Assembly (NCBI RefSeq): GCF_902652685.1
Contig: NZ_CACRUY010000014.1
Coordinates: 40,260 to 104,259 of the forward strand
Length of the DNA stretch: 64,000 bases
From: Mycobacterium sp. Marseille-P9652
GTDB lineage: Bacteria; Actinomycetota; Actinomycetes; Mycobacteriales; Mycobacteriaceae
Direction: 5' to 3'
Positions 4,342 through 62,514 of this stretch are shown here, piece after piece. The position numbers and the translations under genes were made by a program. The first letter of the stretch is position 1, and each line of letters begins with the position of its first letter. Below the pieces are notes generated by a model that was not told where the DNA came from, made no database searches, and saw only the letters and a list, made by a program, of their open reading frames with translations.

Positions 4342-5811
4342 ATGTCGTACTTGGTCAGCGCGCCCGACATATTGACGTCAGCTGCCGCCGATGTCGAGCA
4401 CATCGGTTCGGCGATCACGACGGCCGGCGCGAATGCGGCGGCCCCGACGACCGGATTGTTGGCCGCCGCCCAGGACGAGGTCTCCACGGCCATTGCACGG
4501 CTCTTCGCCGGCTACGGCCAGGAATATCAGGCGCTCGTGTCGCAGGCCGCGCTGTTCCACAGCCAGTTCACCCAGGCCCTCAACGCGGCGGGCGGCGCCT
4601 ACGCCCAGGCGGAGGCCACCGGCGCGGCGTTGTTGTCGGGCGGCCCGAGCGGCAACGGCCCCAGCCTGCTCGCGGCGGCGGTGCAGTCGCCCGCCGGCGA
4701 CCCGCTGTACGCCGTGATCATGGGCGGCACGAGCAACCCGCTACCCGACGCGAAATACCTGAACAACGTCTTCAACAACTACATCAAGCCCCTCTACCCG
4801 GCGGTGCAGCCGCCGCCGATCGGCCTGTTCACGCCCGAGCAGTTCTGGCCGGTGACGCCACAGCTGGGCAACCTCACCTTCGGACAGTCGGTGGCCAAGG
4901 GCGTGAGCCTGCTCAACACCGAAATCACCGGCCTCCTCAGCAATCCCAACAACAGCGCGGTCGTATTCGGCTACTCACAGAGCGCCACCATCGCGACCAA
5001 CGAGATCAATGCCCTCATCGCGGCGGGCGCACCCTATTCAACTATTGATCCCCTGCACACCAACATGTTGCAGTTCGTGCTCGTCGGCAATCCCAACAAT
5101 CCCGTCGGCGGGATCCTCTCGCGCTTCCCCGGGTTCTACCTCCCGTTCCTCGACGTGGCGTTCAACGGTGCGACGCCGTCGGGCCCGTACCACACGACGA
5201 CGTACACGATCCAATACGACGGCATCGCCGACACCCCGCAGTACCCGCTCAATCTCGTGTCGGATCTCAATGCCTTCATGGGCTACTTCTACGTGCACAA
5301 CATGTACCCGAACCTGACGCCGACCCAGATCGCCAACGCGGTTCTCTTGCCCTCGAGTGACCCCACCAGCCAGTACTACATGGTCATGACGCAGAACCTG
5401 CCGCTGCTACAGCCGATCCGCGACATCCCCTACGCGGGGCCGCCGATCGCCGACATCTTCCAGCCCGACCTGCGGGTGCTCGTCGACCTGGGCTATGCGG
5501 ACTACGGGCCCGGCGCCAACTACGCCAATGTGCCCACGCCTGCCGGCCTTTTCGACCTCCCCAACCCCTTCACCGTGATCCCGGATCTCGCGCTGGGTGC
5601 GGTGCAGGGGCCGTACGGCGCCGCCGTCGAGATCGGCGTCGAAGCGGGATTGGTGTCGCCGTCGTACTTCCCGAACACCTACCCGTGGGTTCCGTCCATC
5701 AATCCCGGCCTGAACTTCTCCTTCGGCCAGCAGAGCACGACGCTGCTGTCCCTGTTGAGCGGGGCAACGGGCAACCTGCTGCACATCATCCCGCCGCCGA
5801 ACTTCGGCTGA
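4342..5811 (+). CDS. PE-family protein with PE-PPE alpha/beta-hydrolase domain (PE4-like)
   Basis: A 489-residue protein using the canonical PE start MSYL at 4342; an in-frame ATG at 4321 is less likely. Residues 1-95 form the PE helical hairpin and end with the type VII secretion motif YxxxE (Y87-E91). A PE-PPE serine-hydrolase domain follows, with nucleophile elbow GYSQS (Ser212) and the conserved FPGFYLPFLDVAFNGATP region. Export through an ESX system and esterase or lipase activity at the cell envelope are expected from the family. M. tuberculosis has PE4 (Rv0160c) in the matching position. The next PE gene begins 83 bp downstream and is ~60% alike by eye, so the pair arose by duplication. 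Confidence 0.9.
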   Translation: MSYLVSAPDILTSAAADVEHIGSAITTAGANAAAPTTGLLAAAQDEVSTAIARLFAGYGQEYQALVSQAALFHSQFTQALNAAGGAYAQAEATGAALLSGGPSGNGPSLLAAAVQSPAGDPLYAVIMGGTSNPLPDAKYLNNVFNNYIKPLYPAVQPPPIGLFTPEQFWPVTPQLGNLTFGQSVAKGVSLLNTEITGLLSNPNNSAVVFGYSQSATIATNEINALIAAGAPYSTIDPLHTNMLQFVLVGNPNNPVGGILSRFPGFYLPFLDVAFNGATPSGPYHTTTYTIQYDGIADTPQYPLNLVSDLNAFMGYFYVHNMYPNLTPTQIANAVLLPSSDPTSQYYMVMTQNLPLLQPIRDIPYAGPPIADIFQPDLRVLVDLGYADYGPGANYANVPTPAGLFDLPNPFTVIPDLALGAVQGPYGAAVEIGVEAGLVSPSYFPNTYPWVPSINPGLNFSFGQQSTTLLSLLSGATGNLLHIIPPPNFG

Positions 5812-29155: not shown

Positions 29156-29707
29156 CTACTCCGACGTGGTGCGCGCGCTGCTGGCCGCGTCCTTCTCCGT
29201 CGACGCGCCCTCGTGGGTCAGCGCCCCGCCGGCGCTCTCCAGGTGCGCCCGCACGAACCACTGGAACTTCTCCAGGCTGCCGGCCTGGTCGATCAGCAGG
29301 TCCTGGGTGACCGGGTCGAGCTCCTCGGTCTCGGCGATGCTCGCCCGGATGTCCTCGATGACCCCGGTGTAGACCAGGTCGAGCGCCGCGAGGTGGGACT
29401 GGACGCAGTCGCGGCCCACGGAGTAGTCGTCCCAGGTGCGGTCCTTGATGATCGCTCCCGGCGTCCCCTGCGGCGAGGCGCCCAGGGCCGCGATGCGCTC
29501 GGCGACGTCGTCGGCGAAAGCGCGGACCGCGTCCACCTGCGGGTCGATCATCTCGTGCACCCCAATGAAGTTGGGCCCCACGACATTCCAATGAATGTGC
29601 TTGAGCGTCAGATGAAGATCGTTGTAAGTGCTCAGTTGCTTCTGTAGCAGTTCAGCAAGCCGGGCGCCCTGCTTGTCGGTCAGGCCCGGGATAGTGAACT
29701 GGGTCAT
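29156..29707 (-). CDS. dps: Dps-family DNA-binding ferritin-like protein
   Basis: A 183-residue protein starting at ATG 29707. It matches the mycobacterial Dps1 type: HIHWNVVGPNFIGVHEMIDPQV-type ferroxidase region (ligands H, D, E across the dimer interface), TPGAIIKDRTWDDYSVGRD, and EKFQWFVRAHLESAGG. The C-terminal tail (about residues 165-183) is hydrophilic but poor in lysine/arginine compared with the DNA-binding tail of M. smegmatis Dps1, so DNA binding may be weaker. It stores iron and protects DNA in stress. M. tuberculosis lacks dps, so this is an addition to the syntenic block. A SigF-like promoter lies 43 bp upstream. Confidence 0.93.
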   Translation of the reverse strand: MTQFTIPGLTDKQGARLAELLQKQLSTYNDLHLTLKHIHWNVVGPNFIGVHEMIDPQVDAVRAFADDVAERIAALGASPQGTPGAIIKDRTWDDYSVGRDCVQSHLAALDLVYTGVIEDIRASIAETEELDPVTQDLLIDQAGSLEKFQWFVRAHLESAGGALTHEGASTEKDAASSARTTSE

Positions 29708-29749: not shown

Positions 29750-29774
29750 ATACCCGATGGCTCCGCCCGTAACC
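29750..29774 (-). promoter_or_regulatory. SigF-type promoter of dps (near consensus)
   Basis: On the minus strand GGTT-N15-GGGTAT (-10 at 29750-29755, -35 at 29771-29774). The -10 is perfect. The -35 reads GGTTA and lacks one T of the GGTTT consensus. It lies 42 bases upstream of the dps ATG. Mycobacterial dps genes are known SigF targets. Confidence 0.55.
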
Positions 29775-46629: not shown

Positions 46630-47025
46630 TCACTCCGTGGTCTGCGTGAGGTCGGGCTCGACGTTCTCGTCGACGACCTCGTACAGCGATTCGCCGTCCT
46701 CGGGTGCGCCGTCGATCTGCCCCCGGTGGGCGCGGGCGGGGGGGGCGGGCTCGACCGCGTCGCGGACGTCGATGTCGTCAGGGGAGACGTCGGGCTGCTC
46801 CTCGGCGAGACGGGCGTCGAGGGACTCACCCTCACGCTCCTCGCGCGCCGTCATCCCGAAGCGGTTGGCCCCGCTCCATCCCTCGGGCGGGTCCACGACG
46901 ATGTCCCCGTCGTCGTTGTGCACCTCGTCGGAATCGGTGCCTTCGCTCGCGTTCAGCGTGTCGCCCGGACCGCCCTCCTCGGGGAAGTCCGAGGCGTCCA
47001 TGTCGGCTTGGGGGTTCTCGGTCAT
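46630..47025 (-). CDS. Acidic DUF5709-type hypothetical protein
   Basis: A 131-residue, very acidic protein. The core PPEGWSGANRFGMTAREER, then EGESLDARLAEEQPDV, resembles DUF5709, a mycobacterial/actinobacterial family of unknown function sometimes linked to stress. No signal or transmembrane segment is seen. A weak promoter-like GTTT-N16-GGGCAA lies just upstream. It lies between the GNAT gene and the desaturase TetR. Confidence 0.7.
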   Translation of the reverse strand: MTENPQADMDASDFPEEGGPGDTLNASEGTDSDEVHNDDGDIVVDPPEGWSGANRFGMTAREEREGESLDARLAEEQPDVSPDDIDVRDAVEPAPPARAHRGQIDGAPEDGESLYEVVDENVEPDLTQTTE

Positions 47026-47072
47026 GGCCTTTCGATTGCCCGCCGGGTCCGGGCCCTAAACGCCGCGCCCGG

Positions 47073-47678: not shown

Positions 47679-47743
47679 CAGGTCAGGCTAGGCGACGCCG
47701 CGGCGCGAGGTGTGACGAGCGACGCCGCGGGTACTTTGACCCG

Positions 47744-48832
47744 GTGACCGGGATGTCGCGTAGGTCGTTCGGGCGGATGGCCGCCGGCGCGGGCGTGCTG
47801 GGGCCCGCCGGAATCTCCGCCGCCTGCGGCGGTGACCGGGGCCGGCCCGCCGGTCCCCCGACCCCGCCGGGCAAAGGGGTAGGCGTCGTGCTGTCGCACG
47901 AGCAGTTCCGCACCGACCAACTCGTGGCGCAGGCCCAGGCGGCCGAACGGGCCGGCTTCCAATACGTCTGGGCCAGCGACCACATCCAGCCGTGGCAGGA
48001 CAACGAGGGCCACTCGATGTTCCCCTGGTTGACCCTGGCGCTCGTGGGCCAGAGCACCAGCCGCCTCACGTTCGGCACCGGCGTCACCTGTCCCACCTAC
48101 CGCTACCACCCGGCGACGGTGGCTCAGGCGTTCGCGTCGCTGGCGCTCCTCTACCCCGGCCGGGTCTTCCTCGGCGTCGGCACCGGCGAGCGCCTCAACG
48201 AACAGGCCACCACCAACAGCTTCGGCAAGTACGCCGAGCGCCACGACCGGCTGGTCGAGGCCGTCACGCTGATTCGCCAACTGTGGGGCGGCGGCCGGGT
48301 TTCGTTCAGCGGCAAGTACTTCCAGACCGACTCGCTGAGGCTGTACGACACCCCGCCGACGCCCCCGCAGATCTTCGTGGCGGCCAGCGGGCCCAAGAGC
48401 GCGACGCTGGCGGGCCAGTACGGCGACGGCTGGATCACCCAGGCGCGCGACCTCTCCGATCCCCGGCTGCTCGCCGCGCTCGCCGCCGGCGCTCGAGCGG
48501 CCGGTCGCGATCCGGCGACCCTCGGCAAGCGCGCCGAGGTGTTCGCCGTCGTCGGCGACGCCGCCGCGGCCGCCCGCGCGGCGACGTTGTGGCGCTTCAC
48601 CGCCGGCGCGGTCGATCAGCCCAACCCCGTCGAGATCCAGCGCGCCGCCGACGCCAACCCCATCGACAAGGTGCTCGCCAACTGGGCGGTCGGCACCGAC
48701 CCGGCAACCCACGTCAACGCCGTGCAAAAGGCGTTGGACGCCGGGGCCGTTCCGTTCCTGCACTTCCCTCAGGACGATCCGACCGCGGCCATCGACTTCT
48801 ATCGCACGAACGTCCTGCCGAAGCTGCACTGA
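47744..48832 (+). CDS. fgd2: F420-dependent hydroxymycolate dehydrogenase-type enzyme, Tat/lipoprotein (Rv0132c, Fgd2)
   Basis: A 362-residue protein from GTG 47744 (ATG 47753 alternative). The N-terminal MSRRSFGRMAAGAGVLG has the twin-arginine signal and ISAACGG a lipobox, so it is probably exported and lipid-anchored. The luciferase-like core has VGVVLSHEQF, DHIQPWQDNEGHSMFP and VFLGVGTGERLNEQ. M. tuberculosis Rv0132c, first called Fgd2, acts as an F420-dependent oxidase of hydroxymycolates rather than on glucose-6-phosphate. Whether this organism makes ketomycolate in the same way fits but is not shown. It converges on the CDF transporter. Confidence 0.9.
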   Translation: MTGMSRRSFGRMAAGAGVLGPAGISAACGGDRGRPAGPPTPPGKGVGVVLSHEQFRTDQLVAQAQAAERAGFQYVWASDHIQPWQDNEGHSMFPWLTLALVGQSTSRLTFGTGVTCPTYRYHPATVAQAFASLALLYPGRVFLGVGTGERLNEQATTNSFGKYAERHDRLVEAVTLIRQLWGGGRVSFSGKYFQTDSLRLYDTPPTPPQIFVAASGPKSATLAGQYGDGWITQARDLSDPRLLAALAAGARAAGRDPATLGKRAEVFAVVGDAAAAARAATLWRFTAGAVDQPNPVEIQRAADANPIDKVLANWAVGTDPATHVNAVQKALDAGAVPFLHFPQDDPTAAIDFYRTNVLPKLH

Positions 48833-48836
48833 TCCG

Positions 48837-49760
48837 TCAGTTCGGCGGTGCGCTCGGGATTTCGGGTTGGATGTAGACCGCCCGCACCGACGGCACCGCC
48901 TGACGGATGCGCGTCTCCGCGTCGCGAATCACGGCGGCGGCAACGGCGAATTCGGGCTCGGGGCCGCACACGACCCTGGCGGCGACCACGAGCTGGTCCG
49001 GGGCGAGGTACTGGGTGCGCAGGTCGGTCACCGCGTCGACGTGCTCCTCGCGTTGCAACACCGAGCGAATCACCTTGCACTGGTTCGCCGTTGCACCCTC
49101 GCCGATCAGGAGGCTGTGCGTCTCGACGATCAGCACCAGGGCGATCCCGCCGAGGAGGACGCCGATGGCCAGGGTGCCGATCGCGTCCCAGATCGGGTCA
49201 CCGGTGACGGCCGTGAGGCCCACGCCGGCGAAGGCCAGGGCCAGGCCGATCAGTGCGGCGCTGTCCTCGAGCAGGACCACCGGCGGCTCGGGCACGCGCG
49301 AATTGCGGATGAACTGCCACCAACTGTCGGATCCCTTCAACCGCTTCGACTGTTTGCGCACCGTGTGCAGGCTGTAGCCCTCCAGCAGCGCGGCCACGCC
49401 CAGGATCGCGATCGCGATCTGCGGTGAGGTCAGCGGTTCGGGGTTTCGGAGCTTGCGACAGCCCTCATAGAGGGCGACCACCGAGCCGAGCGCGAACACC
49501 AGCAGGGCCACGACGAACGAGTAGAAGTACCGGCTGCGGCCATACCCGAACTGGTGCAACGCATCCGGGCGCCGGTGCGCCTGGCGCTTGCCGAACATCA
49601 GCAACAGCTCGTTCATGCTGTCGGCGACGGAGTGCAGCACCTCGGCGAGCATCGCCGCACTGCCGGTGACGAGGAAGCCCACGAGCTTGGCGACGGCGAT
49701 CCCCGCGTCGGCACCGAACGCCACCAGTACGGACTTGGTCGTGCTGTCGGCGGCCACCAC
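48837..49760 (-). CDS. Cation diffusion facilitator (CDF) metal transporter
   Basis: A 307-residue protein from GTG 49760 with six hydrophobic segments. TM2 carries the LAEVLHSVADSMNELLLMFG metal site (H/D, LHSVADS) and TM5 the LLEDSAALIGL (EDSAA) variant of the HxxxD site. The C-terminal cytoplasmic domain starts near EEHVDAVTDLR. It exports Zn2+, Mn2+ or Fe2+ against protons. The SigF promoter on this strand has its -10 ending just 6 bp before the GTG, so the mRNA is probably leaderless. Confidence 0.92.
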   Translation of the reverse strand: MVAADSTTKSVLVAFGADAGIAVAKLVGFLVTGSAAMLAEVLHSVADSMNELLLMFGKRQAHRRPDALHQFGYGRSRYFYSFVVALLVFALGSVVALYEGCRKLRNPEPLTSPQIAIAILGVAALLEGYSLHTVRKQSKRLKGSDSWWQFIRNSRVPEPPVVLLEDSAALIGLALAFAGVGLTAVTGDPIWDAIGTLAIGVLLGGIALVLIVETHSLLIGEGATANQCKVIRSVLQREEHVDAVTDLRTQYLAPDQLVVAARVVCGPEPEFAVAAAVIRDAETRIRQAVPSVRAVYIQPEIPSAPPN

Positions 49761-49766
49761 CCGGGC

Positions 49767-49791
49767 ATACCCTTGGCCGCCAGCGCGAAAC
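49767..49791 (-). promoter_or_regulatory. SigF promoter of the CDF transporter gene
   Basis: On the minus strand GTTT (49788-49791), 15-bp spacer, GGGTAT (49767-49772): a full match to the known mycobacterial SigF consensus GTTT-N15-17-GGGTAT. The expected start site falls on or beside the GTG at 49760. Confidence 0.75.
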
Positions 49792-49809
49792 GACCGTCGG
49801 CTGCAAGCC

Positions 49810-49834
49810 GTTTCAACACCCGGGGCCCGGGTAC
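49810..49834 (+). promoter_or_regulatory. SigF promoter of the hemerythrin gene
   Basis: GTTT (49810-49813), 15-bp spacer, GGGTAC (49829-49834). It is divergent from the CDF promoter and separated from it by only 18 bp, so the two are back-to-back. The hemerythrin ATG is 43 bp downstream. Confidence 0.7.
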
Positions 49835-49877
49835 CCGCAGGCCAATCCGCGATCAAGGCTCCGATGGAAGGCAAGTT

Positions 49878-50456
49878 ATGGACGCGATCACTTTTCTCCG
49901 CCAGGACCACAAGAGCGTGCTCGGGTTGCTGGAAACCCTCGACGGCGCCCCGTCCGGGTCGGGCGCCGAGGCCAGCGGCCTGGAGACGGTGGTGAACAAC
50001 CTGATCATCGCCGAGTCGCAACACGAGGCGATCGAAGAGCAGTTCTTCTGGCCCGCGGTGCGAAATGCCATCGGCGACGGGATCGTCGACAAGGCGCTCG
50101 AGCAGGAGCAGGCCGGAAAGAAGGTGCTGCAGCGGCTGGAGGACGGCAAGCCGGGCGAGGCCGACTATCACGACGCGCTGCAGGAATTCGTCAAGCTGGG
50201 CCGCGAGCACATCGCCTACGAGCAGGACGTGGTGTGGCCGCAGGTCGAGGCCGTGATCGGCCGCGACGACCTGGAGAAGATCGGCGGAAAGCTCGAAGCG
50301 GCAAAGAAAGTCGCGCCGACGCGGCCGCACCCGAACACCCCACCGAACCCCGCCGTGCTCAAGACGGTCGGCATGGGCGCGGCGGTCATGGACCACGTGC
50401 GCGACGCCGTCACCGGCCGCGCCGACGACAACCCGCCCGACCCGCAGGTCAAGTAG
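49878..50456 (+). CDS. Hemerythrin-like HHE domain protein
   Basis: A 192-residue protein from ATG 49878 behind ATGGAAGG. The four-helix HHE pattern is present: MDAITFLRQDHKSVLGLLE, then ESQHEAIEEQFFWPAV, and later GREHIAYEQDVVWPQVE (H...HxxxE iron ligands). After residue ~150 the protein carries an extended tail with PHPNTPPNPA and ends without domain content. It binds a di-iron centre, used for O2/NO sensing or iron/redox stress defence in mycobacteria. It ends at a strong terminator shared with the convergent catalase. Confidence 0.9.
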   Translation: MDAITFLRQDHKSVLGLLETLDGAPSGSGAEASGLETVVNNLIIAESQHEAIEEQFFWPAVRNAIGDGIVDKALEQEQAGKKVLQRLEDGKPGEADYHDALQEFVKLGREHIAYEQDVVWPQVEAVIGRDDLEKIGGKLEAAKKVAPTRPHPNTPPNPAVLKTVGMGAAVMDHVRDAVTGRADDNPPDPQVK

Positions 50457-50466
50457 CAGAGAGGAA

Positions 50467-50500
50467 AAAGGCCGGGCGTTGATTTCAACGCCCGGCCTTT
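50467..50500. terminator. Bidirectional intrinsic terminator
   Basis: AAAGGCCGGGCGTTGA-TT-TCAACGCCCGGCCTTT: a 16-bp perfect stem with A-run on one side and T-run on the other, between the convergent hemerythrin and catalase genes. It serves both strands. Confidence 0.9.
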
Positions 50501-50522
50501 CTCACTGTCGAATCAGGTCGAA

Positions 50523-51419
50523 TCAGATTGTGGGAATGCGTTGTTCGTGCGTGAAGGGCTTGTCGGCGTTGATCGCCGGCGAGCCGTTCGGGTTCTGCTC
50601 GGCGCCCGTGTTCTGACGGGTCGTGCCGCCCAGCCACTCTTCCTGCGGCTTCTCCACGTACTGCCATTCCATGCCCTCCGGCCACGGGCCCTGACCCTGG
50701 TTCCACGGCCCTCGAATGGACTCGCCGCCGCCGTTCGACATGTTGAACGCGACGTTCGCGAAGCGGGGGTCCGCCGGCAGTTGTCCCGGCGGGAAGTTGA
50801 CCGGCAACTCGTTGAGGGCCGCGGTGAACTGCTGGTAGTGGGCCACCTCGCGTGTCATCAGGAAGTTGAGCGTGTCCTGGACGCCGGGGTCGTCGGTGAA
50901 CTGCTTGAGGTATTCGTAGACGATCTTCGCCCGGGATTCGGCGGCCAGGTTGCTGCGCAGGTCCACCGTCGGGTCGCCATTGGCGTTGACGTAGGAGCCC
51001 ATCCACGGCACGCCCTGGGAATTGCTCACGTCCGGGCCACCTCCGGTCAGCGCGAGGTACAGCGGGTTCACCGCAACCTGGTGGACGATCTGGTCGCGCC
51101 CGTCGCCGCTGGACACCGCGGGCATCCAGTCGCACTTCTCGTTGGCGATCTTCAGATCGTCATTGAGCCCGTCGAGCAGCATGGTGATCATCGAACCGAC
51201 CATTTCGAGGTGACTGAGTTCCTCGGTGGCGATGTCCATGAACAGGTCGTACATTTTGGGGTTTTTGTCCCGGAGGACGAAGGCCTGGGTGAAGTACTGC
51301 ATGGCGGCCTTGAGTTCCCCGTTGGCGCCCCCGAATTGCTCTTGCAGCAGCGTGGCGAACCGCGGATCCGGGGCGCTCACCCGGACCTCGAATTGCAGGG
51401 CTTTGTTATGGACGAACAC
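50523..51419 (-). CDS. Manganese catalase (non-haem)
   Basis: A 298-residue protein of the manganese catalase ferritin-like family. It has metal ligands Glu35 (GANGELKAAMQYFTQAF) and Glu67/His70 (ATEELSHLEMVG), with a later TREVAHYQQF (Glu/His) and AAESRAKIVYEYL. It degrades H2O2 with a di-manganese centre, independent of KatG. The C-terminal third (WNQGQGPWPEGMEWQYVEKP) is typical. M. tuberculosis lacks this enzyme as far as I know. Control by a SigF-type promoter 42 bp upstream links it to general stress. Confidence 0.94.
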   Translation of the reverse strand: MFVHNKALQFEVRVSAPDPRFATLLQEQFGGANGELKAAMQYFTQAFVLRDKNPKMYDLFMDIATEELSHLEMVGSMITMLLDGLNDDLKIANEKCDWMPAVSSGDGRDQIVHQVAVNPLYLALTGGGPDVSNSQGVPWMGSYVNANGDPTVDLRSNLAAESRAKIVYEYLKQFTDDPGVQDTLNFLMTREVAHYQQFTAALNELPVNFPPGQLPADPRFANVAFNMSNGGGESIRGPWNQGQGPWPEGMEWQYVEKPQEEWLGGTTRQNTGAEQNPNGSPAINADKPFTHEQRIPTI

Positions 51420-51460
51420 GGGGCCTCCTAAGCCTTCGGGACTGGTGTAATTCGCGGCGG

Positions 51461-51485
51461 GTACCCGTGGTAGATGCCGACAAAC
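51461..51485 (-). promoter_or_regulatory. SigF promoter of manganese catalase gene
   Basis: On the minus strand GTTT (51482-51485), 15-bp spacer, GGGTAC (51461-51466), with the ATG 41 bp downstream. Same spacing as the other SigF-like sites here. Confidence 0.72.
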
Positions 51486-51565
51486 GTTGTGGCAGCGGGC
51501 TTACTCGGCCCATACGCGGCGGGCGGGGGCGCCCGGCGAAAACCGATGGTGCACAATCCCGTCTT

Positions 51566-52273
51566 ATGGACATCGCCGACACCAACGCTCGGCACGAACT
51601 GGCGCTGCGCATGGCCGAGCTGGTGCGCGAGATCGCCGCCCCCCGGCCACTCGAGCGGGTGCTGGCCGAGGTCACCACCGCAGCGAGGGAGCTCATACCG
51701 CGGGTCGACCTCGCGGGAGTCCTGCTGGTGAAAGGTGGCGGCGAATTCGAGTCGGTGGCCGACACCGACGGTCTCGTCGCGGAACTCGACAGGCTTCAGC
51801 ACGATTTCAGCGAGGGTCCCTGCGCCGAGGCGGCGCTGCGGGAAACGTTGGTCCGCAGCGACGACATGCGTGACGAGACGCGGTGGCCCCGCTACGCGCC
51901 GGCGGCCGTCGAGCGCGGGGTGCTGGGCAGCCTGTCGTTGAAGCTGTACACGGCGGACCGCACCGCCGGCGCGCTCAACCTCTTCAGTTTCGAGGCGGGC
52001 GCATGGGATTCGGAGGCCGAGACCATCGGCATGGTGTTCGCCGCGCACGCCGCCGCCGCGATCCTGGCGGCGCGTCATGGTGAGCAGCTGCATTCCGCGA
52101 TGTCGACCCGGGACCGGATCGGTCAGGCCAAGGGCATCATCATGGAACGCTTCGGCGTCGACGACGTCCGCGCCTTCGATCTGCTGCGCATGCTCTCGCA
52201 GGAGAGCCAGCTCAAGCTCGTCGACATCGCGCAGCGCGTCGTGGACACCCGCGGCACCGGCGGGGAACTGTGA
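51566..52273 (+). CDS. GAF-ANTAR domain RNA-binding regulator
   Basis: A 235-residue protein from ATG 51566. The N-terminal GAF domain (about 15-150, LVREIAAPRPLERVLAEVT to NLFSFEAGAWD) senses a small molecule. The C-terminal ANTAR three-helix domain (about 170-225: RDRIGQAKGIIMERFGVDD, then RAFDLLRMLSQESQLKLVDIA) binds twin hexaloop RNA and prevents termination. It is divergent from the Mn-catalase gene. Mycobacteria have many such proteins, and the target RNA is unknown. No ANTAR hairpin pair was recognised nearby. Confidence 0.9.
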   Translation: MDIADTNARHELALRMAELVREIAAPRPLERVLAEVTTAARELIPRVDLAGVLLVKGGGEFESVADTDGLVAELDRLQHDFSEGPCAEAALRETLVRSDDMRDETRWPRYAPAAVERGVLGSLSLKLYTADRTAGALNLFSFEAGAWDSEAETIGMVFAAHAAAAILAARHGEQLHSAMSTRDRIGQAKGIIMERFGVDDVRAFDLLRMLSQESQLKLVDIAQRVVDTRGTGGEL

Positions 52274-52353
52274 GGAACGGCTCGGCGAGACGCCCGCTTA
52301 CGATGGTGGGGCCCTAATCGACGAGTCCGGCGCGGCGTTGCGCCGGGGAACGG

Positions 52354-53658
52354 GTGGCCACCGTGTGGGATTTCGAGACGGACCCGGAATATCAGGCCAA
52401 GCTCGACTGGGTCGAGAAATTCATGGCCGAGGAACTCGAGCCGCTGGACCTGGTGGCCCTCGACCCCTACGACAAGAAGAACGCCGAGATGATGGCGATC
52501 CTGCGGCCCCTGCAGCAGCAGGTGAAGGACCAGGGGCTGTGGGCCGCGCACCTGCGGCCGGAGCTCGGCGGCCAGGGGTTCGGGCAGGTGAAGCTCGCCC
52601 TGCTCAACGAGATCCTCGGCCGGTCGCGCTGGGCGCCGTCGGTGTTCGGCTGCCAGGCGCCCGATTCGGGCAACGCCGAGATCCTCGCGCTGTTCGGCAC
52701 CGACGAGCAGAAGGCCCGCTACCTGCAGCCGCTGCTCGACGGCGAGATCACCTCCTGCTACTCGATGACCGAGCCGCAGGGCGGATCCGACCCGGGGCAG
52801 TTCGTCACGGCCGCGACGCGTGACGGCGACGACTGGGTGATCAACGGCGAGAAGTGGTTCTCCACCAACGCCAAACACGCGTCGTTCTTCATCGTCATGG
52901 CCGTCACCAATCCCGAGTCCCGGACATACGACAAGATGTCGCTGTTCATCGTTCCCGCCGAGACACCGGGCATCGAGATCGTGCGCAACGTCGGCGTCGG
53001 CGCCGAATCGTCCAAGCGCGCCAGCCACGGCTACGTCCGCTACAACGACGTGCGGGTGCCGGCCGACCACGTGCTGGGCGGCGAGGGCCAGGCATTCATG
53101 ATCGCCCAGACTCGGCTCGGCGGCGGCCGCATCCACCACGCGATGCGCACGATCGCGTTGGCGCGCAGCGCATTCGACATGATGTGCGAGCGCGCGGTGT
53201 CGCGCAAGACGCGGCACGGCCGGCTGGCCGACTTCCAGATGACGCAGGAGAAGATTGCCGACAGCTGGATCCAGATCGAGCAGTTCCGGCTGCTGGTGCT
53301 GCGCACGGCGTGGCTGATCGACAAGCACCACGACTACCAGCAGGTGCGCCGCGACATCGCGGCGGTGAAGGTCGCCATGCCACAGGTCCTGCACGACGTC
53401 GCGCACCGCGCCCTGCACCTGCACGGCGCCCTGGGCGTCTCCGACGAGATGCCGTTCGTCAAGATGCTGGTGGCCGCCGAGTCGCTGGGCATCGCCGACG
53501 GCGCGACCGAACTTCACAAGATGACGGTGGCCCGTCGCACGTTGCGCGAATACCAGCCCGTGACAACGCCTTTCCCGTCCGCGCACATCCCGACGCGGCG
53601 TGCCGAGGCGCAGGCCCGACTGGCGGAGCGCCTGGAACACGCCATCGCCGAGTTCTAG
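52354..53658 (+). CDS. fadE1: Acyl-CoA dehydrogenase FadE1
   Basis: A 434-residue acyl-CoA dehydrogenase from GTG 52354 behind GGGGAAC. FAD motif CYSMTEPQGGSDPGQFVTAA, NGEKWFSTNAKHASFF, the helical-domain HHAMRTIALARSAFDMM, and HGALGVSDEMPF. The substrate is probably an acyl-CoA or cholesterol side-chain intermediate. By order it matches Rv0131c (447 residues). It converges on htdZ, with a hairpin repeat between the two. Confidence 0.92.
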   Translation: MATVWDFETDPEYQAKLDWVEKFMAEELEPLDLVALDPYDKKNAEMMAILRPLQQQVKDQGLWAAHLRPELGGQGFGQVKLALLNEILGRSRWAPSVFGCQAPDSGNAEILALFGTDEQKARYLQPLLDGEITSCYSMTEPQGGSDPGQFVTAATRDGDDWVINGEKWFSTNAKHASFFIVMAVTNPESRTYDKMSLFIVPAETPGIEIVRNVGVGAESSKRASHGYVRYNDVRVPADHVLGGEGQAFMIAQTRLGGGRIHHAMRTIALARSAFDMMCERAVSRKTRHGRLADFQMTQEKIADSWIQIEQFRLLVLRTAWLIDKHHDYQQVRRDIAAVKVAMPQVLHDVAHRALHLHGALGVSDEMPFVKMLVAAESLGIADGATELHKMTVARRTLREYQPVTTPFPSAHIPTRRAEAQARLAERLEHAIAEF

Positions 53659-53668
53659 ACCTCCCTCG

Positions 53669-53731
53669 GTCGAGCGTCGACTTATTGCCCAGAACCCAAG
53701 GTCCGTTTCGCGCCAACAACTCGACGTTCGG
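53669..53731. repeat. Intergenic hairpin repeat, copy 2
   Basis: Left arm GTCGAGCGTCGACTTATTG and right arm CAACAACTCGACGTTCGGC (complement GCCGAACGTCGAGTTGTTG). It is the same element as at 38048-38107 read on the other strand, again placed between convergent genes (fadE1 and htdZ). The arms match at most positions with G-T wobbles; the middle differs. Confidence 0.55.
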
Positions 53732-53740
53732 CGCGGGGGA

Positions 53741-54196
53741 TCAGGTGATGTAGCGGACGATGCTTTCGGCGACACACGCCGGCTTGGGCGAGCCCTCGAT
53801 CTCGACCGTCGTCGACATCGTCGCCTGCACGGCACCGTTCCCCAGGTCGTCGACACTCACCAACGACGTGTTGGCGCGCACCCGAGAACCGACCGGGACG
53901 GGTGCCGGGAAGCGAACCTTGTTCAGGCCGTAGTTGATTGCCAGCTTGATCCCGTTGACGGTGTAGATCTGGTGCTGCAGCCGCGGCAGCAGCGCCAGGG
54001 TCATGAACCCGTGCGCGATGGTCTTTCCGAACGGGCCCTTGGCCGCCCGTTCCGGGTCGACGTGAATCCACTGGTGGTCACCGGTCGCGTCGGCGAACAG
54101 ATTGACGTCGTCCTGGGTGATGGTCACCCAGTCGCTCTGGCCGATCGTCTCGCCGGTGGCGGCCGTCAGGTCGGCCACCGAATCGAAGGTGCGCAT
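53741..54196 (-). CDS. htdZ: (3R)-hydroxyacyl-CoA dehydratase HtdZ (MaoC-like)
   Basis: A 151-residue hotdog-fold R-hydratase with the catalytic pair Asp/His in FADATGDHQWIHVDPERA (Asp ~40, His ~45) and the loop GPFGKTIAHGFMTLALLP. The length equals that of M. tuberculosis Rv0130 (HtdZ). It hydrates trans-2-enoyl-CoA to (3R)-hydroxyacyl-CoA. Placed opposite fadE1, it may take the FadE1 product, though the two are on different strands. Confidence 0.94.
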   Translation of the reverse strand: MRTFDSVADLTAATGETIGQSDWVTITQDDVNLFADATGDHQWIHVDPERAAKGPFGKTIAHGFMTLALLPRLQHQIYTVNGIKLAINYGLNKVRFPAPVPVGSRVRANTSLVSVDDLGNGAVQATMSTTVEIEGSPKPACVAESIVRYIT

Positions 54197-54267
54197 TGGT
54201 CCTCCTGAGGGGTGGTAACGATGCCCGCCTGCACCCTATCCGAGCCCGCCGCTGGGGTCGTCGGGCG

Positions 54268-54292
54268 GTTTGCGGCGGGGCCGCACGGGTAC
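54268..54292 (+). promoter_or_regulatory. SigF promoter of the small acidic protein
   Basis: GTTT (54268-54271), 15-bp spacer, GGGTAC (54287-54292). The ATG at 54302 is only 9 bp downstream, so the transcript would have a leader of a few bases at most. Confidence 0.7.
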
Positions 54293-54301
54293 AGGACAGC
54301 G

Positions 54302-54475
54302 ATGACGGAGAACAAGGGCCACAAGACTGAGGACGACGTCGAGCCCGAGGCGCACGAGTCTCGCTCGCGCGCCGCGGCGGGGGAGCCCGACGGCTCGTAC
54401 GTGGGCGCCGCGGGCTCCGACGACACGTTCGACGCCGGGGAGACGGGCGCCGAGGCCCGGGCCGAGCGAGGCTGA
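54302..54475 (+). CDS. Small acidic hypothetical protein (57 aa)
   Basis: A tiny, highly charged, probably disordered protein (NKGHKTEDDVEPEAHESRS, then GSYVGAAGSDDTFDAGETG). It is too short for domain recognition and composed like stress-induced disordered proteins. The SigF promoter is its only positional evidence; no homology was recalled. It is followed by the metallophosphoesterase gene 34 bp later. Confidence 0.55.
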   Translation: MTENKGHKTEDDVEPEAHESRSRAAAGEPDGSYVGAAGSDDTFDAGETGAEARAERG

Positions 54476-57229: not shown

Positions 57230-58339
<1,110 letters not shown>

Positions 58340-59259: not shown

Positions 59260-60608
59260 CTACGCGGCGGTGAGCCGGGCGATGGAGCGCAACGGGATCG
59301 GCAGCCAACCCGGCCGGTGCCGGGCCTCGTAGCCCGCCTCGTAGACGGCCTTGTCGAGTTCGTACGCGGCCAGCACGTGTGCCGAGTCCCGCGGGTCGAT
59401 CCCCGCGACCGCCGCATACCCGTCGCAGAAGGCCTTGGAGTTGCGCTCGACCCACTCTCGGGCGCGGGCGGCCAATTGCTTGTCGGTGGGCTGCTCTACC
59501 AGCGGTCCGTAGGCGGCGTACTCGAACGAGCGCAGCACGCCGGCCACGTCGCGCAGCGGCGAGTCGGGAGCCCGCCGCTCGTCGAGCGGCTGGCCGGGCT
59601 CGCCTTCGAAGTCGATCAGCAGCCAGCTCTCCGGGGTGCGCAGCACCTGGCCCAGGTGCAGGTCGCCGTGCACCCGCTGGACGGTGATCGTCTCGTCGGC
59701 GAGCTTGCCGAACCGCTCCTCGATGATCGCCGCGTACTCCCGGAGCTCCGGCACCGCGGCCACGGTCGACGACAGCCGCGCGAGCATGTTGTCCACCGGG
59801 AACGGCGCCTGCGCCGTGCCGAGTTCCTGGGCCAGGGTGGCGTGCACGGACGCGACGGCCTCCCCCAGCCGGTTCGACTCGGCGGCGAAGTCCCCGCCGA
59901 CCTCGTAGGCGTACAGGTCGCCCTCGGCGAACAGGTCGCGCACACTGGCGGTCGCCATCGCCCACCCCTCGGCGGCGTTCGACGCGAACTCGGTCACCAT
60001 GCCCAGCGGCCACGCCTCGTCGCCGGGTGGCGTCATCTCGTAGGTGCCCAGCAGCCGGGCGACGTGCGGGTTGGCCGCCCGGCCGAGCACCCGGTTCAGC
60101 TCGATGTCGGGGTTGATGCCGGCGCTCACGCGGCGGAACACCTTGAAGATGGCGCGCCGGTCGAAGATCACGCTGGTGTTGCTCTGCTCGGCGTCGGACA
60201 CGTGCGGCATGGCCTCCAGCGGGAGGGTGACACCGGGCTCCTTGGTGAAGGTGAGTTTCCCGGAATCGGGTGTGTCGCGTTCGCCGCCCGCGTCGATGAG
60301 CGACAGCAGGAATTGCGGCGCGGCCGCGTCGTAGAGCGCGTCGAAACCCGTCCGGTCGTCGGCGGCGCCGATCGTCGCGACCGTGCTGTACTCGGACACC
60401 GGCGCCGAGTCCCACCCGACGATCACCTGGTAGCGCTCCGCGGGCCCCGTCGTGTACTCGGCGTCCACCAGGACGAGGTCAAGGTCGTCGCGCAGTGGGA
60501 CGACGACGGCGGCCTCGGCCGCCACCAGCTTCCGGTTGCGTCCGGCGTACCACCGCTGCTGAGGCAGCCACTCCGCCCAGGGCAGCTCGCCCGGGCTTCC
60601 AGTGCTTG

Positions 60609-60612
<4 letters not shown>
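59260..60612 (-). CDS. mak: Maltokinase Mak
   Basis: A 450-residue kinase of the aminoglycoside phosphotransferase fold. N-terminal [11 protein letters not shown] is the cap, with [23 protein letters not shown] in the ATP-binding N-lobe (stretch split: [17 protein letters not shown]). The catalytic loop is [11 protein letters not shown] (HxDxHxxQ) and metal-binding [12 protein letters not shown]. It phosphorylates maltose, made from trehalose by TreS, to maltose-1-phosphate for GlgE alpha-glucan synthesis. Its ATG overlaps the treS stop by 4 bp, matching Rv0127 after Rv0126. Confidence 0.96.
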
Positions 60613-62393
<1,781 letters not shown>

Positions 62394-62514
62394 CATTTCC
62401 ACGATGCCACGTGTACCCGAGGCGCGACCGTGGGAATCACGCCCGCGGAGAACCGCCCAATTACGCCTGGCGGCAACGTAATTCGCCGCCAGGCCAACGT
62501 CTTTCGGACGAGGA

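Follow-up and report, generated by a model that had tools for sequence, protein, structure and literature searches.

Whether four short sequences of one pattern, GTTT-N15-GGGTAY, act as promoters of a single regulon is the question raised by the DNA studied here, a stretch of 64,000 nucleotides (nt) from Mycobacterium sp. Marseille-P9652 that is called the window throughout and belongs to a genome of 5.70 Mb assembled in 128 contigs. The sites lie upstream of genes for a CDF family cation exporter, a hemerythrin-like protein, a manganese catalase and an acidic protein of 57 amino acids (aa) (Table 1). It is very probable that all four are working promoters for a SigF-family sigma factor, and that they form a SigF-controlled cluster to which probably four more genes of the window belong. 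The original prediction, an earlier reading of this DNA, had placed the four sites and described them as correctly oriented; the coordinates and strands are all exact, and each site aims at a start codon. The distance from the hexamer to the start is 9 nt for the CDF gene (start taken at 49757), 43 nt for hemerythrin (start 49878), 41 nt for catalase (start 51419) and 9 nt for the 57-aa open reading frame (ORF; start 54302), or 10, 44, 42 and 10 nt, respectively, when counted from GGGTA. Near-leaderless transcripts would be expected for the genes whose start codon is 9-10 nt past the hexamer.

The sites might be chance matches. It had been estimated that well under one would occur by chance, and this holds, with a mean of 0.04 expected in the window versus 4 observed and none of 100 dinucleotide-preserving shuffles of the window reaching four sites. 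When GTTT-N-GGGTA was scanned in the window at spacers 8 to 25, no match was found at any spacer except 15; a relaxed scan gave 11 matches at 10 places, the strict pattern being narrow. The whole-genome scan suggested earlier also revealed enrichment at N15, with 27 strict matches (13 forward, 14 reverse) versus 2 for the pattern read backwards and, over the 12 wrong spacers N19-30, 35 matches or 2.9 per spacer. By arithmetic, 0.30 of the 27 genome sites would be expected by chance to lie in 64 kb, versus the four present. The looser pattern (N14-16, any base after GGGTA) occurs 79 times versus 18 times read backwards. By a reading of the ORF list, in which gene starts are not curated and one doubtful TTG start (L025) is left out, 18 of the 27 strict sites are followed within 60 nt by a plausible start codon. 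In favour of a chance origin, about three sites per spacer are expected genome-wide, and for the other 9 no clear start was seen in this distance, some of these sites lying in probable coding sequence. The enrichment at a single spacer speaks against it, as does the behaviour of the sites in related loci.

These loci were fetched with the catalase protein as query, the best 80 of 246 found being used, and their choice is independent of the motif because the protein, not the motif, was used for fetching. Sites were scored over 200 nt upstream of each gene, to a maximum of 9/9 and with spacers of 14-16 allowed, and loci were excluded from the counts when the match had less than 60% identity (for catalase and hemerythrin, 45%) or the upstream stretch was shorter than 100 nt. 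The catalase promoter is kept in all 80 loci, at 9/9 in 77 and 8/9 in three; when only the nearest 150 nt upstream are considered, 75 of 80 have the full 9/9. Around the 9/9 catalase sites, where the motif columns are 100% by selection, the upstream flank and the middle of the spacer are variable (no column above 56% and 47%, respectively), and conservation is partial (up to 89%) in the bases adjoining the boxes and in the flank downstream. Seven control genes of the same loci reached at least 8/9 in 5 of 150 upstream regions (ANTAR 3/26, ACAD 0/23, MaoC 0/26, PDE 0/17, MarR 0/17, ABC 2/17, GNAT 0/24), a count that leaves out a 131-aa gene (17/24 at 8/9) and an fgd2-like gene (0/25 at 8/9, with the start misplaced upstream), and of 3000 pieces of 200 nt drawn at random from the loci, without removal of the real sites, 138 reached 8/9.

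Hemerythrin allows the sites to be tested by a natural contrast, independently of the motif search. The gene was found in 75 of the 80 loci, with the site at 9/9 in 61, 8/9 in two and 5-6/9 in 12, and the presence of its own site follows gene order, being observed in 60/61 convergent and 3/3 divergent loci and in 0/11 co-directional ones. Thus, 63 of 64 hemerythrin genes that are not behind catalase on the same strand have their own site, and 11 of the 12 site-less loci lack it because hemerythrin follows catalase on the same strand, with a start 21 to 96 nt beyond the point where the catalase match ends. The co-directional loci include Mycobacterium and Nocardia species and probably represent at least two lineages, not 11 independent events. 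The shuffles, spacer controls, conservation and this gene-order pattern together lead us to reject a chance origin, the likelihood of which we regard as negligible. The conservation check proposed for relatives thus upheld the sites before catalase and hemerythrin, and likewise those before the CDF and 57-aa genes, as described below.

As to which sigma factor reads the sites, the mycobacterial SigF consensus consists of a -35 GTTT and a -10 GGGTA separated by N14-19 (Singh et al. 2015, PMC4694148), and all four strict sites agree with it. The closest known system is MSMEG_6211 to MSMEG_6213 of Mycobacterium smegmatis, where the catalase site is GTTT-N15-GGGTA at 40 nt from the start codon and the hemerythrin site GTTT-N15-GGGTA at 51 nt, both genes being down in the sigF mutant (PMC4694148). 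The log2 changes reported there (exponential/stationary phase) are -5.43/-3.87 for MSMEG_6212, -4.18/-5.96 for MSMEG_6213 and -4.39/-4.12 for MSMEG_6211. In hypoxic M. smegmatis, GGGTA was found in the -10 region of 56 induced promoters, 44 of them with an extended -35/-10 motif (PMC6448022); start sites were mapped in that work, whereas the sites of the window are predicted from sequence. The motif, its conservation and the M. smegmatis data together point to SigF control in the present species.

The prediction of SigF-type promoters is borne out by the genome-wide excess, by conservation and by the published finding that catalase and hemerythrin of M. smegmatis are SigF-dependent, although SigF as their sole reader is not, as two SigF-family sigma factors are present in the genome (C1:286665-287339 and C8:87542-88219). 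An alternative, which we hold to be improbable, is therefore that the promoters are real and read mainly by the second of these, on contig C8, a paralogue with its own signal. Both proteins score above the SigF cut-off of NCBIfam (493.1 and 430.7 bits versus 372); however, the M. smegmatis catalase and hemerythrin genes, which have the same promoters, require sigF for their expression (PMC4694148). The sigF gene is preceded by an rsbW-like anti-sigma gene, so named from a reading of its translation.

Beyond catalase and hemerythrin, SigF control can be proposed for the CDF and 57-aa genes. In the seven catalase loci that carry the CDF gene, GTTT-N15/16-GGGTAG precedes it in 7/7 at 9/9, and in most relatives the gap is 10 once the start is placed one codon later. 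A genome sample, the 30 best of the 129 genomes out of 396 with a match at E <= 1e-90, divides sharply: of 13 CDF genes with at least 61% identity (own included), the site is 9/9 in 12 and 8/9 in one, versus 0/17 with a site of at least 8/9 among those of 56-60% identity. Catalase lies within the fetched stretch for 11 of the 13; in L122 and L126 the CDF gene is away from catalase in the fetched stretches, yet the site is kept at 8/9 and 9/9. For the 57-aa gene, the promoter was found in all 24 loci of the catalase sample (one at 9/9, 23 at 8/9) and in all 30 of the best genome matches (own included; best 30 of 217), 27 at 8/9, with GTTT-N15-GGGAA mostly replacing GGGTA in relatives and the best site of L168 lying at another distance. 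At E <= 1e-5 the protein is matched in 217 of the 396 genus genomes, counting its own; the weak matches may be to other acidic proteins. Searches of Pfam (E up to 1) and NCBIfam (E up to 0.001) assigned it to no family.

The cluster of four sites as originally predicted stood, although its extent appears to have been underestimated, as candidate sites one or two bases off the SigF consensus also precede dps, a 131-aa gene, an fgd2-like gene and treS (Table 1). For dps, GGGTA was found upstream in 30/30 loci (18 at 9/9, 12 at 8/9), and for treS, GGGTAC occurs at equal distance in 29/30, with none in L232; both samples are the own genome and its 29 closest others, drawn from 90 (dps) and 77 (treS) matched among 118 genomes. 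The fgd2-like gene has GGGTA upstream in 24 of the 25 loci examined (20 at 8/9, four at 7/9 and one at 5/9). Loci below 60% identity or with an upstream stretch shorter than 80 nt were excluded from these three counts, which are weaker evidence than the catalase site because the closest relatives share much sequence. The 131-aa site scores 8/9 in 17/24 loci (gap 5-11), 7/9 in four and 6/9 in three; several of the low-scoring loci may have a misplaced start, the match beginning at residue 9-17. The dps and treS genes of the window, judged by family and name, would be orthologues of M. smegmatis genes that depend on SigF, MSMEG_6467 (starvation-induced DNA protecting protein; log2 -5.72/-5.55) and MSMEG_6515 (trehalose synthase; -2.03/-2.58) (PMC4694148).

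Table 1. Sites and genes of the window (positions in the window)
Feature	Position	Strand	Details
SigF-type promoter, CDF exporter gene	49767..49791	-	GTTT-N15-GGGTAT
SigF-type promoter, hemerythrin gene	49810..49834	+	GTTT-N15-GGGTAC
SigF-type promoter, manganese catalase gene	51461..51485	-	GTTT-N15-GGGTAC
SigF-type promoter, 57-aa gene	54268..54292	+	GTTT-N15-GGGTAC
CDF family cation exporter, 306 aa	48837..49757	-	PF01545 125.2 bits (cut-off 26.6) and TIGR01297 136.4 bits (cut-off 82.35), both above, computed with the start one codon earlier than 49757
Hemerythrin-like protein, 192 aa	49878..50456	+	PF01814 47.8 bits, above cut-off 25.3
Manganese catalase, 298 aa	50523..51419	-	PF05067 234 bits, above cut-off 27
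57-aa acidic protein	54302..54475	+	no family found
Candidate SigF-type site, dps	29750..29774	-	GGTT-N15-GGGTAT, also GTTA-N14
Dps-like protein	29156..29707	-	1uvh (starvation-induced DNA protecting protein), E 2.7e-93
Candidate SigF-type site, 131-aa gene	47036..47061	-	GTTT-N16-GGGCAA
131-aa acidic protein	46630..47025	-	no Pfam family
Candidate SigF-type site, fgd2-like gene	47710..47734	+	GTGT-N15-GGGTAC, 9 nt before start
F420-dependent hydroxymycolic acid dehydrogenase (fgd2-like)	47744..48832	+	TIGR04465 712.2 bits, cut-off 470
Candidate SigF-type site, treS	62413..62438	-	GATT-N16-GGGTAC
Trehalose synthase TreS	60609..62396	-	TIGR02456 939.8 bits, cut-off 678.35
Probable maltokinase, next after treS	59260-60612	-	TIGR02457 242.2 bits, below cut-off 375.05

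With these additional sites a narrower explanation has to be weighed, namely that only the catalase and hemerythrin promoters, perhaps with those of dps and treS, are SigF-dependent, and that the sites of the CDF, 57-aa, 131-aa and fgd2-like genes are look-alikes or belong to another sigma factor. The 57-aa site is mostly GGGAA, the 131-aa site GGGCA, and in the fgd2-like site GTGT mostly stands in place of GTTT; moreover, consensus sites without SigF dependence are on record (PMC4694148). On the other hand, GGGAA and GGGCA sites precede the SigF-dependent M. smegmatis genes for KatA (MSMEG_6232) and MSMEG_6305 (PMC4694148), and the CDF site is 9/9 in 7/7 loci, so that we consider this explanation quite unlikely and regard SigF control of all four genes as the better proposal.

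Several observations weigh against SigF control of the whole cluster. With two SigF-family sigma factors present, either might read the sites, and SigF consensus sites before sigH3, whiB1, whiB4 and phoP (Humpel et al.) were accompanied by unchanged expression in the sigF mutant, as noted in PMC4694148. L063, a convergent locus in which hemerythrin lacks a site, is the single exception to the gene-order pattern. The CDF gene is patchy, being present in 7/80 catalase loci, and the -35 box is imperfect in the sites of treS and the fgd2-like gene. The MarR gene of the window has an 8/9 site that is common to 0/17 relatives. In addition, related loci are non-independent samples, those for dps, treS, 57-aa and CDF consist of the closest relatives only, and the CDF and 57-aa genome samples overlap in species with the 80 catalase loci. 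Finally, the M. smegmatis hemerythrin MSMEG_6212 is reported to affect susceptibility to erythromycin and not to H2O2 (PMC4660385), which argues against the label of peroxide defence for hemerythrin.

The same result modifies the original description of the target genes as a metal and oxidative-stress set: the CDF, hemerythrin and manganese catalase families are confirmed, and the role of hemerythrin in peroxide defence is not. The more specific assignments are limited. The catalase is alignable with solved manganese catalases and scores 187.6 bits for the NCBIfam equivalog ManCatBAC, below its cut-off of 350; the exporter has a partial match to FieF/YiiP-type chains (best E 5.9e-08) and 30.8 bits for the manganese exporter equivalog MntE against a cut-off of 500, the other named CDF equivalogs listed in the NCBIfam search all being below their cut-offs. 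No solved-structure chain matched hemerythrin at E <= 1, and the Dps-like protein scored 109 bits with the NCBIfam Dps model, slightly below the cut-off of 114.

Under SigF control, the cluster might operate as follows. The partner-switching system, published for M. smegmatis (the subject of PMC7693655) and presumed to work here, would release SigF, which would then switch on the divergent CDF and hemerythrin genes as well as the catalase and 57-aa genes, with dps, the 131-aa gene, the fgd2-like gene and treS probably co-activated. Of the predicted products, the manganese catalase would remove peroxide, Dps would handle iron, hemerythrin would bind O2 or act in redox control, the CDF protein would export a divalent metal and TreS would make trehalose.

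The cluster is probably a SigF regulon of the kind already known from M. smegmatis, larger than four sites, with the CDF exporter, the 57-aa protein, the 131-aa protein and the fgd2-like enzyme as probable new members. For non-tuberculous mycobacteria, this would extend the likely SigF regulon by two small acidic proteins, an exporter of the CDF family and an F420 enzyme. In the literature searched, within the terms used (catalase/hemerythrin loci, non-tuberculous manganese catalase and SigF-controlled cation exporters), no report of a link between SigF and such an exporter was recognised by title or abstract. The scattered distribution of the CDF gene on a 24-tip tree suggests repeated loss, and transfer may also have contributed. 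In L032, L036 and L046, where the CDF gene was not found, a 9/9 GTTT-N15/16-GGGTAG lies 115-116 nt from the hemerythrin start, and the CDF-bearing loci L030, L031, L049 and L053 have the same site at 117 nt; in L036 and L046, by a reading of the sequence, the 3' end of the fgd2-like gene directly follows the leftover CDF promoter, and in L032 it lies outside the stretch inspected. A bolder proposal, which we offer tentatively and consider doubtful, is that this clade has at least eight SigF promoters over 33 kb, tying peroxide and metal defence (manganese catalase, hemerythrin, Dps, CDF) to envelope and trehalose functions (F420-dependent hydroxymycolic acid dehydrogenase, TreS), with two small acidic proteins also in the set, the exporter gained or lost and the leftover promoter in L036 and L046, which faces the dehydrogenase gene at its 3' end, possibly making an antisense RNA.

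The divergent partner of hemerythrin is the CDF exporter in the window, unlike the arrangement in 14 of the 80 loci, where a GGTT-N-GGGTA site points in the direction opposite to hemerythrin. In these loci (L039, L040, L042, L043, L045, L048, L051, L067-L071, L073, L094) the GGTTGAAAC-N-GGGTA site lies on the other strand and overlaps the hemerythrin -35 box, and in eight (L043, L045, L067, L068, L069, L071, L073, L094) an acidic ORF of 46-59 aa follows it. This ORF is probably MSMEG_6211, whose site is GGTT-N15-GGGTA at 9 nt (PMC4694148). A 328-aa protein starts 9 nt past a strict SigF-type hexamer upstream of catalase, near 5400 in L043, L065, L073 and L094, and has a tblastn match to the fgd2-like gene at 35-41%.

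Unlike that of M. smegmatis, the cluster of the window is set among Rv0130-like, antigen 85-C-like, fgd2-like and treS genes, its MaoC gene matching RV0130 and the gene at 57239-58339 matching antigen 85-C. These surroundings appear to resemble the Rv0127-Rv0133 region of M. tuberculosis. An Rv0130 query gave three matches at E <= 1e-90 in 396 genus genomes (best 93%), M. tuberculosis seemingly not being among the genomes sampled, and one match (93%) in 198 relatives of genome G173. When two flanking proteins of the window and of 23 among the 80 loci were placed on a midpoint-rooted tree, the window fell beside Mycobacterium bohemicum (local support 0.912).

Further sites were noted in the window and in the rest of the genome. 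Two more relaxed matches lie in the window at 1296-1321 and 5679-5704. At L023 and L024 of the same genome, strict sites lie upstream of genes for the copper metallothionein MymT (99.1 bits, cut-off 80) and for a second hemerythrin (49.1 bits, cut-off 25.3). Seven relaxed SigF-type sites occur within 32 kb of another contig (C28:662-32413), three of which are strict (L015-L017) and precede an epimerase-like and two glycosyltransferase-like genes.

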